Part shown: positions 18,359 through 46,615 of the stretch, piece after piece
How positions within the stretch are numbered: position 1 is the stretch's first letter
Layout: the number at the start of each line of letters is the position of its first letter
Source of the DNA: Neokomagataea tanensis
GTDB taxonomy: Bacteria > Pseudomonadota > Alphaproteobacteria > Acetobacterales > Acetobacteraceae
NCBI RefSeq assembly: GCF_006542335.1
Contig: NZ_CP032485.1
Coordinates: 467,501 to 531,500 of the forward strand
Direction: 5' to 3'
Length of the DNA stretch: 64,000 nt
Translations under genes and position numbers: made by a program
Notes under the pieces: model-generated
What the model was told of the DNA's origin: nothing
Database searches by the model: none
What the model saw: only the letters and a program-made list of their open reading frames with translations

Positions 18359-18727
18359 ATGACTCATTCTCGCACGGCGCTTGTCGTAGAGGACGATTTC
18401 ATTATTAGGCTCTGTCTAACAGAGTTTCTTGAGGGCGAGGGCTTCAGCGTTGCTGAAGCCTCCGGTCTCGAAGAGGTGGAGGCCATCTTAGACGGTGGCA
18501 CCACTTTCGACGTTCTTATAACGGACTACTACCTGACCAATAGTACTGGCCCGGAAGTTGTCTCCGCCGCGAGAAAAAAACAGCCGTCCCTGCCTGTTAT
18601 TTACATCAGCGGCAATGATGTTGCTCCAGACGGCACCTCACCACTTGCACGACACCTAACGAAACCTTACGCTTTAGAGGATGTTTTGAGCGCAATTGAC
18701 GCTCTTACTATTTCCTCTTCTCGTTAG
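18359..18727 (+). CDS. Single-domain response regulator (receiver only)
   Basis: 122 residues, a CheY-like receiver without an output domain. All phosphorylation residues are present: acidic pair Asp12/Asp13, phospho-acceptor Asp56 (LITDYYL), a Ser in YISGN and the Lys in TKPY. It begins 3 nt after the SDR gene and is probably co-transcribed with it. No histidine kinase is nearby. Such proteins often act as phosphate sinks or in phosphorelays in alphaproteobacteria. Confidence 0.88.
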   Translation: MTHSRTALVVEDDFIIRLCLTEFLEGEGFSVAEASGLEEVEAILDGGTTFDVLITDYYLTNSTGPEVVSAARKKQPSLPVIYISGNDVAPDGTSPLARHLTKPYALEDVLSAIDALTISSSR

Positions 18728-43899: not shown

Positions 43900-44343
43900 C
43901 TATGAGGTCAGCTTAGGCCTCATAGCGCATTCATCGAGTAGAATTTGCTCAACCTTCAACGCTTTGCGCTTGTGCTCTTCCACAGCGTCCTCCTGCAAAC
44001 GCTCCACAACACTCAGCGCTGCTTGCGCATCCAAGAGTGCTGCATGGACACAATCTCGGTCCATACCAATACGCTGTCTCTGGGCTTCTGCCTCCCTAAC
44101 GGCCTTCTGCCCAGAGGGAAGCCACGCACTAAAAGCCTCTACAGCTTGATCATCAGACTGGGCATCAATCGCCGCATTGCGCTCCGTCACAATGCGCTGC
44201 TGAGCCGCCACCAAAGCACATTCTGCTTCCTGCTCAAGGCCAACCACCTCCCTGAAAACCTGCTCCACAGACTCCAGTTCGTTTTTCCGTACAGCGTACA
44301 AAGCATCCAACGTCGCTTGTTCCATGACACTTTTCTCTCTCAT
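43900..44343 (-). CDS. fliJ: FliJ-like flagellar export chaperone
   Basis: 147 residues, almost entirely charged/alanine-rich coiled coil with no cysteine-rich or membrane region. Sequence alone is weak, but it overlaps the fliI stop by 4 bp and has the size of FliJ, which always follows fliI in this arrangement. FliJ couples the FliI ATPase to the FlhA export gate. It converges with gltA with no terminator between them. Confidence 0.72.
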   Translation of the reverse strand: MREKSVMEQATLDALYAVRKNELESVEQVFREVVGLEQEAECALVAAQQRIVTERNAAIDAQSDDQAVEAFSAWLPSGQKAVREAEAQRQRIGMDRDCVHAALLDAQAALSVVERLQEDAVEEHKRKALKVEQILLDECAMRPKLTS

Positions 44344-45686
44344 GCTTCATTATCACCCAGAACAGCCACCAGATGCTCGAACACATCTTGAGCGTGTACG
44401 GGTTCATGTTTTCCTTGGGTCAAAAACTCTGTCAGGGCTGGCATAAGGCGAATGGCTTCGTCAGTTTCAGGCTCAGACCCTGCTTTATAGGCTCCCAAGC
44501 GCAGCATATCTGCCACCCGTTCGTAACGAGCCATGACTGAACGCGCTTTCTTCGCCAGGCCTGCCTCTGCGGCGGACAAGCACCCCGGCACAGAGCGTGA
44601 CAATGATTTTAAAACGTCAATGGCGGGGTAGCGTCCTTGCTCACCAATGCGGCGGTCCAACACTACATGACCATCCAAAATACCCCTGACCGCATCCGCC
44701 ACAGGCTCATTATGGTCATCACCCTCTACCAACACCGTGAACAGCGCCGTAATCATACCCTGCCCCGGATAGCCCGGCCCTGCGCGCTCTAGCAGTTTGG
44801 GCAATTCCGCGAAAACAGATGGAGGATAACCACGCGTAGCTGGCGGTTCTCCCGCAGAAAGCCCAATCTCACGCAAGGCCATGCAGTAGCGTGTGACGCT
44901 ATCCATCAAGAGCAAAACGGATTTGCCCTGATCCCGGAAATATTCGGCCACAGCCATGGCAGAAGTCGCAGCATCACGACGCATCAGCGGCGGCATGTCC
45001 GATGTCGCTACGATCACGACGCTCCTTGCCAGCCCTTCGGGACCTAGGTCGTCTTCAATAAACTCGCGAACCTCACGTCCCCGCTCCCCTACCAAAGCAA
45101 TCACGGCCACGTCACATTGTGCGCCACGCACCAGCATCGACAGCAAAGAAGACTTGCCGACACCGGAGCCGGCGAAGAGACCCAAACGCTGCCCGACTCG
45201 CGTTGTGACGAAAGCATCCATCGCGCGCACCCCCAAGTTGAGGCGTGCCCCTAAACGTGCTCGCGTTGCGGCATTTGGTGGCGCAGACCGTAAGTCCTGT
45301 CTATGACCCGACGAATCCAAACCTCCTCTGCCGTCCATCGCTCGGCCAAGAGGGTCCAAAACACGCCCCAACCATCCATCACTGACCTGTAAAGCCGCTG
45401 AGGACGCAACCGATAGCGGCAACCATGCCTCACATCCCGGCCCGACACCGTCCAAACCACCGAACGCCATGGTTTGCGCAAGCCCATCACGGAAGCCAAC
45501 AACTTCAGATTGTATTTTTTCGCCCGACCGAGCGGTAACAGTCAGCCTATCTCCAATGGATAAGAACGATTCTAGCCCTTGAATACTCATGCACAGGCCC
45601 GAAACATCTCGCACAGTGCCCACCACGCGATCCGGGTAAAGACCAGATATTCGCTCATTTGCATGATTTAAAAGCTGGTTTTCCAT
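44340..45686 (-). CDS. fliI: Flagellum-specific ATP synthase FliI
   Basis: 448 residues, an F1-like ATPase of the flagellar type III export apparatus. Walker A is GSGVGKSS, followed by VIALVGERGREVREFIEDDLG; Walker B is VLLLMDSVTRYCMALREIGL and the family segment GEPPATRGYPPSVFAELPKLLERAG is clear. The fliI-fliJ pair is isolated from other flagellar genes in this window and is divergent from ctrA, a known class of flagellar regulator. Confidence 0.96.
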   Translation of the reverse strand: MENQLLNHANERISGLYPDRVVGTVRDVSGLCMSIQGLESFLSIGDRLTVTARSGEKIQSEVVGFRDGLAQTMAFGGLDGVGPGCEAWLPLSVASSAALQVSDGWLGRVLDPLGRAMDGRGGLDSSGHRQDLRSAPPNAATRARLGARLNLGVRAMDAFVTTRVGQRLGLFAGSGVGKSSLLSMLVRGAQCDVAVIALVGERGREVREFIEDDLGPEGLARSVVIVATSDMPPLMRRDAATSAMAVAEYFRDQGKSVLLLMDSVTRYCMALREIGLSAGEPPATRGYPPSVFAELPKLLERAGPGYPGQGMITALFTVLVEGDDHNEPVADAVRGILDGHVVLDRRIGEQGRYPAIDVLKSLSRSVPGCLSAAEAGLAKKARSVMARYERVADMLRLGAYKAGSEPETDEAIRLMPALTEFLTQGKHEPVHAQDVFEHLVAVLGDNEA

Positions 45687-45766
45687 TGGAAATCTTAACT
45701 TTTAGCTGGTTTTTCCAGCACTTAACTTCGCCCGGAAAACCTAACAAAAGGTGAACAAATCTCTAA

Positions 45767-45781: not shown

Positions 45782-45868
45782 GAAAAATTTGCGAACCTAG
45801 AGTTTAATTTCTCGACAAATACAACTTAAGGTAGTAAACAACTGCTTACCAACCCAGGAGTTGAACAC

Positions 45869-46615
45869 ATGCGTATCCTTCTTGTTGAGAGTGACTTAAA
45901 CAGCGCGACACATCTTACTCAGGCGCTCCGTGCAGCATCTTACACCGTCGACCACACAGCCCTCGGGGAAGAAGCTCTCGAGATGCTCCGCCATTATGAC
46001 TATGATGTTGTCGTACTTGAGCTCATGCTCAACGACATTGAAGGATATGACGTCATCCGCCGCTTGCGTGCAGCACGGATCAGCACCCCAGTGCTGGTGC
46101 TGTCCACGCTTCTAAGGCCACAAGCTAAAATTCGCGCATTCTCGATGGGCGCTGATGACTACCTGACCAAACCCCACGATAGCGGCGAACTGGTTGCCCG
46201 CCTGCAAGCCATTACCCGCCGCTCACGCGGCTTTGCTGAGCCACGCCTGCGCATTGCCAATATTGAACTCGACCTGAACAGCAAAAGCGTAAGCGTAAGT
46301 GGAACACCCCTGCACCTAACCGGAAAAGAATACGCTATTCTGGAGCTGCTCGTTATCCGCAAAAACTCAGTGCTTACGAAAGATGCGTTCTTGAACCACC
46401 TATACGGCGGCATTGATGAGCCAGAAATGAAAATCATCGATGTGTTTATCTGCAAGCTGCGCCGCAAACTTCAAGCCGCAAAAGCCGCAAACCTGATTTC
46501 AACCGTGTGGGGCCGCGGCTACATTCTACGCGAAGAGCCTAACAACTCTTCTGAACACATCCCTGAAACCGCCTACGAACAAAGCGCTTTCACAGTCCAT
46601 GCCCCTGCAATGTGA
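45869..46615 (+). CDS. ctrA: CtrA-type response regulator with Glu in place of the phospho-acceptor Asp
   Basis: 248 residues; AGGAG lies 8 nt before ATG. The N-terminal receiver aligns without gaps to Caulobacter CtrA through at least residue 60. Position 51, the phosphorylated Asp, is Glu (VVVLELML; codon GAG at 46019-46021). Acidic-pocket Asp8 is Ser, while Glu7, Asp9, Ser79 and the Lys of TKP are kept. The winged-helix output domain is very well conserved (LTGKEYAILELL, FLNHLYGG, EMKIIDVFICKLRRKL, TVWGRGYILRE). CtrA controls the cell cycle and flagellar genes in alphaproteobacteria. The substitution predicts regulation without phosphorylation. It is convergent with thiD. Confidence 0.92.
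   Translation: MRILLVESDLNSATHLTQALRAASYTVDHTALGEEALEMLRHYDYDVVVLELMLNDIEGYDVIRRLRAARISTPVLVLSTLLRPQAKIRAFSMGADDYLTKPHDSGELVARLQAITRRSRGFAEPRLRIANIELDLNSKSVSVSGTPLHLTGKEYAILELLVIRKNSVLTKDAFLNHLYGGIDEPEMKIIDVFICKLRRKLQAAKAANLISTVWGRGYILREEPNNSSEHIPETAYEQSAFTVHAPAM

Follow-up and report, generated by a model that had tools for sequence, protein, structure and literature searches.

In alphaproteobacteria, CtrA is the textbook example of a master regulator controlled by phosphorylation, and the question raised by a gene of the acetic acid bacterium Neokomagataea tanensis is how such a regulator works once its phospho-acceptor has been replaced. The gene lies on the forward strand at positions 45869..46615 of the window, the 64,000-nucleotide stretch of DNA analysed here, and the initial annotation read it as a CtrA with a natural D51E replacement that may have left the CckA-ChpT phosphorelay, with its control passing to expression and proteolysis. 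The open reading frame starts with ATG and encodes an OmpR-type response regulator of 248 amino acids, in which Pfam recognizes a receiver (77.9 bits, cut-off 30.2) and a Trans_reg_C domain (74.3 bits, cut-off 26.2). The NCBIfam CtrA model NF045991 is by far the top model at 324 bits, yet under its own cut-off of 350, and the solved CtrA chain 4qpj_C is the best match for the receiver, aligning without gaps over residues 1-118. A receiver joined to an OmpR-type winged helix, a best match to CtrA and, in a two-contig genome of 2.58 Mb, only one hit at E<=1e-50 (with 13 of the 21 first-look candidates scored) identify the protein as a single-copy CtrA orthologue. Among the best 80 of 462 loci, its nearest relatives are the CtrAs of Neokomagataea (90% identity to N. 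anthophila) and Gluconobacter.

The receiver domain spans residues 1-117 (45869..46219; PF00072 covers residues 3-112) and is now an aspartate-less pseudo-receiver. Codon 51 (46019..46021) is GAG, which places Glu at the phospho-acceptor position, and codon 8 (45890..45892) is AGT, which replaces the second acidic (Mg2+) residue with Ser; 4qpj_C has Asp at both positions. The codons, the gapless 4qpj_C alignment and the alignment of relatives confirm the two replacements proposed by the initial annotation. The alignment of relatives shows that Ser79 (46103..46105), a conserved phosphoryl-contact position, is retained, as is the conserved switch lysine, Lys101 (46169..46171), which was also compared across ChpT-less genomes; D9 and D56 are still present, and the winged-helix DNA-binding domain (DBD; residues 128-222, 46250..46534; PF00486 covers residues 145-220) is conserved. 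A phosphorelay-controlled CtrA is expected to have Asp51 and the acidic pair, whereas this protein carries Glu51 and Ser8. With its Asp missing, it matches the definition of aspartate-less receivers (ALRs), the pseudo-receivers or atypical response regulators that lack at least one of five catalytic residues, as given in the available part of PMC12632262, where replacement of Asp by Glu, of Lys by Arg and of the second acidic residue by Asn is described as common.

Control by the phosphorelay would also call for ChpT in the same genome, which was sought with the Pfam profile PF10090 and its cut-off. The search, proposed by the initial annotation, found nothing above the cut-off in the N. tanensis genome, and the one sub-threshold hit (20.4 bits) overlaps the ATPase region of a hybrid kinase. 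Among 14 known genomes used as a control, only Caulobacter exceeds the cut-off. In 50 chosen genomes, ChpT was detected above the cut-off in none of the 23 with E51 and in 23 of the 27 with D51, a 24th hit, in G046, being discounted as a kinase because it lies within an 830-amino-acid frame. An even sample of the family comprised 200 genomes, of which 175 had a CtrA match, 169 had a CtrA that was read, and 166 yielded all five catalytic residues, namely receiver residues 7, 8, 51, 79 and 101 (the quintet). Of the 99 genomes with ChpT, 97 have an intact quintet, versus 12 of the 67 without ChpT (broken in 55), an association for which Fisher p-values overstate the case since the genomes are related. 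At a completeness of at least 95%, the counts are 74 of 74 with ChpT and 5 of 54 without (49 broken), and when a single genome of this completeness is taken per genus (72 genera), they are 43 of 43 and 3 of 29.

The two ChpT-positive exceptions, G183 (E51) and G153 (N8), are fragmented genomes of 88 and 90% completeness. Conversely, G149, G080, G180, G063 and G159 have an intact quintet without ChpT at a completeness of at least 95%, and the CtrA match of G159 has an internal stop. Some ChpT absences may be assembly gaps, as completeness falls below 95% in 7 of the 12 ChpT-less genomes with an intact quintet. The CtrA matches of G134, G191, G226, G237, G243 and G246 remained unread, and G112, G082 and G136, whose reading frames lacked receiver residues, were excluded from the 166. 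Second CtrA copies were read in G109, G107, G183, G232, G175 and G218 and none was counted; in G218 the second copy has Asp51 and the counted one Gly. The only ChpT hit of G125, inside a 1036-amino-acid kinase-like frame, was scored as absent, and that of G119, which spans the whole model inside a 746-amino-acid frame, as present. In the Rhodospirillales, the share of genomes with chpT, cckA and divL is only 27-36% according to the available text of PMC8116508. The departure of CtrA from the ChpT phosphorelay is thus supported by a genome without ChpT above the cut-off and by a receiver integrity that tracks ChpT across the family.

The spread of E51 was followed in named contigs, where the 80 best of 462 loci were kept. 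Forty of these have E51, and every one of them bears the name of an acetic acid bacterial genus (Gluconobacter 21, Acetobacter 12, Neokomagataea 3, and Asaia, Tanticharoenia, Brytella and Acidomonas 1 each), and forty have D51, labelled as Acetobacteraceae genera, Rhodospirillales, Alphaproteobacteria, Proteobacteria and, once, Acidobacteria. The replacement is therefore real, but it is no peculiarity of one organism, since it is widespread in acetic acid bacteria. Position 8 divides the 40 E51 loci, with Asp in 12, which are exactly the 12 Acetobacter loci, Ser in 26 and Asn in 2. The coexistence of E51 with and without a full acidic pocket is compatible with D51E having arisen first, which it fits and does not prove. 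Two CtrA proteins of the public protein database (P0062 and P0064) have Asn51, one of them also Gly8, and both read TTP instead of TKP; they possibly represent another independent receiver loss.

The number of origins was addressed on a midpoint-rooted FtsH tree of 98 tips, a single-gene tree in which some nodes are weakly supported. A single ChpT-free clade of 45 tips holds the named acetic acid bacteria, and tips without a genus label are called acetic acid bacteria only by their position beside named ones. In total there are 13 maximal ChpT-free clades; ten hold a broken quintet or a receiver-less match, and the three that are wholly intact are single tips (G125, G214 and G149). Parsimony requires 9 changes for ChpT and likewise 9 for Glu versus any other residue at position 51, a number that rises to 14 when all residues at position 51 are distinguished; residues 8 and 101 need 23 and 15 changes, respectively. 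E51 also occurs outside the 45-tip clade (G131, G198 and G183), therefore it must have more than one origin, and Asp and Glu alternate inside the clade.

Without ChpT, residue 51 is not uniform: across the 67 ChpT-less genomes it is Glu in 32, Asp in 26, Arg in 4, Ala in 2, and His, Gly and Ser in one each. The family-wide comparison called for at the outset shows E51 to be common in acetic acid bacteria and also reveals this variation. Even a single genus (g60) mixes the two carboxylates, with E51 in G185 and D51 in G110 and G234. Positions 79 and 101 vary with residue 51: counted over genomes that are not independent observations, 57 of the 58 ChpT-less genomes with Asp or Glu at position 51 retain both S/T79 and K/R101. 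Of the 9 with another residue, 1 retains both (S/T79 alone in 3, K/R101 in 1), and the other 8 have lost at least one of the two. In the first 54 ChpT-less genomes read, residue 79 is Ser in 52 and Thr in 2. By contrast, an acidic residue at position 8 is kept in only 16 of the 58. While the Mg2+ ligand is lost, the residues expected to bind a phosphoryl group, or a carboxylate mimicking it, persist.

These observations, namely the residues themselves, the lack of ChpT above the cut-off, the association of the two across genomes, purifying selection on the receiver and the coupled retention of positions 51, 79 and 101, form the basis of an explanation that we consider probable. Most acetic acid bacterial CtrAs, including this one, would be out of the CckA-ChpT relay and act as phosphorylation-independent regulators, in which Glu51 is plausibly a phosphomimetic. 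Judged from sequence comparison, the departure from the relay, extended to a clade, appears well supported, and active mimicry of phosphorylation by Glu51 is plausible. ChpT would have been lost, the phospho-acceptor of the CtrA receiver would have been replaced (here by Glu) and usually the Mg2+ ligand D8 as well (by S, N, P or G), and CtrA would act as a DNA-binding regulator without phosphorylation. In its most likely state, Ser/Thr79 and Lys/Arg101 would hold the carboxylate of Glu51, which would mimic the phosphorylated receiver without Mg2+ and keep CtrA active-like and DNA-binding, with an output set by its amount, perhaps via its own promoter. We infer that the N. tanensis CtrA cannot be phosphorylated, is activated by E51 and has fliI, fliF and ctrA itself among its targets. 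Several observations count against this explanation: residue 51 is not always Glu in ChpT-less genomes, Asp and Glu occur within one genus, G183 pairs E51 with a ChpT match, five ChpT-less genomes of at least 95% completeness have an intact quintet, ChpT presence takes only 9 changes on the FtsH tree, and the canonical CtrA box shows no enrichment in this genome.

The same variation makes neutral erosion a serious rival, given that ChpT-less relatives also carry D, A, R, H, G or S at position 51. After ChpT loss the receiver would be a passive fold, Glu51 simply the easiest conservative swap, and the DBD would work whatever the residue at position 51. ChpT-less genomes with Arg, Ala, His, Gly or Ser51, or with a match to the DNA-binding part only, indeed keep the DBD signature, and the repeated changes of residues 8 and 101 on the FtsH tree also speak for erosion. 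Moreover, Glu is the commonest residue at the acceptor position of aspartate-less receivers in general, according to the portion of PMC12632262 available, and this 2025 review adds that an activating role of that Glu has been disproved in some of them. Against erosion stand the coupling of a carboxylate at position 51 to S/T79 and K/R101, with the non-independence of the genomes in mind, the presence of Glu in this CtrA and in each of the 40 loci that bear acetic acid bacterial genus names among the best 80 of 462, and the low dN/dS of the receiver. Comparison of this gene with three Neokomagataea homologues gives values of 0.039-0.055 for the receiver and 0.031-0.048 for the DBD, which are rough at a dS of 0.7 to 4.5, and the receiver appears to be under purifying selection in Neokomagataea. 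On balance we regard erosion as unlikely, though it takes perhaps a quarter of our belief. The most decayed CtrAs (genera g68, g96 and g24) have lost the receiver motif and retain an intact DBD signature, therefore CtrA evidently can exist without a receiver motif; the homologues concerned (L356, L358, L360, L361 and L363) carry Arg or Ser51. In genus g57, a second, divergent CtrA paralogue (L365, L366 and L368) keeps Asp51 and is missing the acidic pocket and the lysine.

A somewhat less likely alternative is that the pseudo-receiver remains a switch with a new input, which could be a partner protein, a small ligand or a modification other than Asp phosphorylation. Purifying selection on the receiver would suit this idea, as would the finding that 26 of the 40 receiver positions at least 95% conserved in genomes with ChpT are still at least 90% conserved in 54 ChpT-less genomes, including Y43, D46, D56, R67, D96, D97 and E107. 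In addition, CtrA is retained in 7 of 31 E51 genomes without an FlhA match, which points to other duties. No candidate partner or ligand was found, which weighs against it. That a different donor phosphorylates this CtrA at another acidic residue is very improbable: D9 and D56 remain and the genome encodes a REC-HK-REC hybrid kinase, but the protein has neither the acceptor nor the second acidic residue, ChpT has no match above the cut-off, and receiver chemistry relies on Asp and the acidic pair, as stated in the part of PMC12632262 at hand. An artefact, either a sequencing error at 46019-46021 or a second canonical CtrA elsewhere, can be dismissed as next to impossible, since Glu51 recurs in all three other Neokomagataea loci and in 37 further named loci, and the genome has its single CtrA match.

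If CtrA is indeed locked in an active-like state, its amount becomes the point of control. The C-terminal Ala-Ala of CtrA is its ClpXP degron in Caulobacter. Here the last two codons (46607..46612) encode Ala-Met, and the Ala-Ala of most D51 CtrAs is missing. Among the best 80 of 462 loci, the 40 D51 proteins end in Ala-Ala (35), Val-Ala (4) or Ala-Gly (1), and all 12 E51 proteins with D8 end in Ala-Ala, versus 1 of the 28 E51 proteins without D8, in which Ala-Val, Val-Ala and Thr-Ala are the commonest other ends. If Ala-Ala serves as the ClpXP degron as it does in Caulobacter, regulated proteolysis was probably lost after phosphorylation, although Val-Ala-like ends may still be recognised for degradation. 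Continued proteolytic control of CtrA in N. tanensis is unlikely, and this part of the original proposal is not supported, given the Ala-Met terminus, the near absence of Ala-Ala from E51 loci without D8 and the failure of all six single-domain receivers tested to reach the CpdR cut-off. The amount of CtrA would then likely be set by transcription.

The divergent neighbour of ctrA is fliI (44340..45686, reverse strand), which encodes the flagellar export ATPase (NCBIfam TIGR03498, 608.7 bits, cut-off 587.45). Between the two genes, alignment reveals an imperfect TTAA-N7-TTAAC-like box (CTAACAAAAGGTGAAC, 45741..45756, forward strand), a candidate CtrA site. It occupies one aligned position throughout the 25 Neokomagataea and Gluconobacter sequences, each of which agrees with the pattern in 7 or 8 of its 9 letters. 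Its mean match is 7.56 of 9 letters, and 1 of 200 letter-shuffled patterns was equally good. Another box, with one mismatch, lies upstream of fliF, on a background of 0.37 sites with at most two mismatches per 200 bp (13 stretches of 20 kb). The canonical Caulobacter TTAA-N7-TTAAC box is not enriched genome-wide, with 8 hits at 6 places versus 16 for the reversed control, and the 64-kb window contains no exact TTAA-N7-TTAA, 0.45 being expected. The leader of ctrA (45830-45868) is conserved in the same 25 aligned sequences, GTAGTAA being present in 25 and GGAGTTGA in 23, and is possibly a promoter core or an RNA leader. The idea that E51-CtrA is kept solely for flagella was rejected: of 31 E51 genomes, 7 have kept CtrA but show no FlhA match at E<=1e-20, therefore flagella are not its sole role.

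A broader version of the preferred explanation, to which we give a little less than an even chance, is that ChpT loss repeatedly freed CtrA, in up to 13 ChpT-free clades on the single-gene tree, and that acetic acid bacteria mostly settled on an Mg-independent, locked-on receiver (a carboxylate at position 51 with S/T79 and K/R101), the degron being lost later. If true, a cell-cycle phospho-switch has turned into a dosage-controlled regulator in nature's own D51E experiment. The laboratory ctrA-D51E allele of Caulobacter and Rhodobacter capsulatus is the identical exchange at the identical position (described in the available parts of PMC6363796 and PMC12186491), whereas E51 here is natural, clade-wide and coupled with pocket loss and ChpT loss. 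In R. capsulatus, overexpression of D51E slightly reduced gene transfer, as the accessible text of PMC6363796 reports, therefore the effects of mimicry depend on the target. With CtrA of the Caulobacter and Brucella CckA-ChpT-CtrA pathway, the N. tanensis protein shares a homologous receiver-winged helix architecture, a gapless receiver alignment to 4qpj_C and a conserved DBD, and it differs in having no acceptor Asp, second acidic residue or C-terminal Ala-Ala, in a genome without a ChpT match. What sets this case apart from other ALRs is that the converted protein is CtrA, elsewhere a phosphorelay target, and that the conversion extends over most of a clade, in genomes that have no ChpT match.

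Among the literature matches listed, covering titles and abstract beginnings outside subscription papers, there was no report of a Glu51 CtrA in acetic acid bacteria; the main text of Brilli et al. (PMC2877005), as far as available, does not contain the terms D51, aspartate or phosphorylation site, nor does that of PMC13214618, to the same extent, mention CtrA. A family with ChpT in some genera only, and with matching changes at the phosphorylation site, provides a natural series of CtrA states, from intact D51 through E51 with an intact pocket (Acetobacter) and E51 without D8 (here) to a lost receiver motif. Such a series allows CtrA function without phosphorylation to be tested directly, partly in cultivated food bacteria, and makes acetic acid bacterial CtrA a clean case for how pseudo-receivers work.

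As to the remaining relay components, the only kinase with a C-terminal receiver found in the genome is a REC-HK-REC protein of 632 amino acids with no Pfam PAS match, which scores 283 bits against a CckA cut-off of 1000. The CckA models give similarly low scores (273-394 bits) to seven hybrid kinases from relatives, of which four belong to ChpT-positive genomes, and thus do not discriminate, so that CckA cannot be called absent here. The REC-HK-REC kinase is the closest approach to CckA found in this genome, and it forms an adjacent histidine kinase pair with a REC-HK protein of 644 amino acids (L110 1354-5183, corresponding to C1:200853-204682 of the same genome). Six single-domain receivers score from nothing to at best 60 bits on the CpdR model (cut-off 180), and two of them flank a CheA-like gene and score best or well on CheY models. 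A 122-amino-acid single-domain receiver in the window (18359-18727) weakly resembles CpdR (43 bits, cut-off 180), and the gene beside it looks by eye like a short-chain dehydrogenase. Finally, when a transmembrane hybrid kinase of Acetobacter was used as a probe, near-full-length relatives (61-100% identity) were found only in the nine Acetobacter genomes among the 37 searched, the relative in one of the nine being split over two frames.
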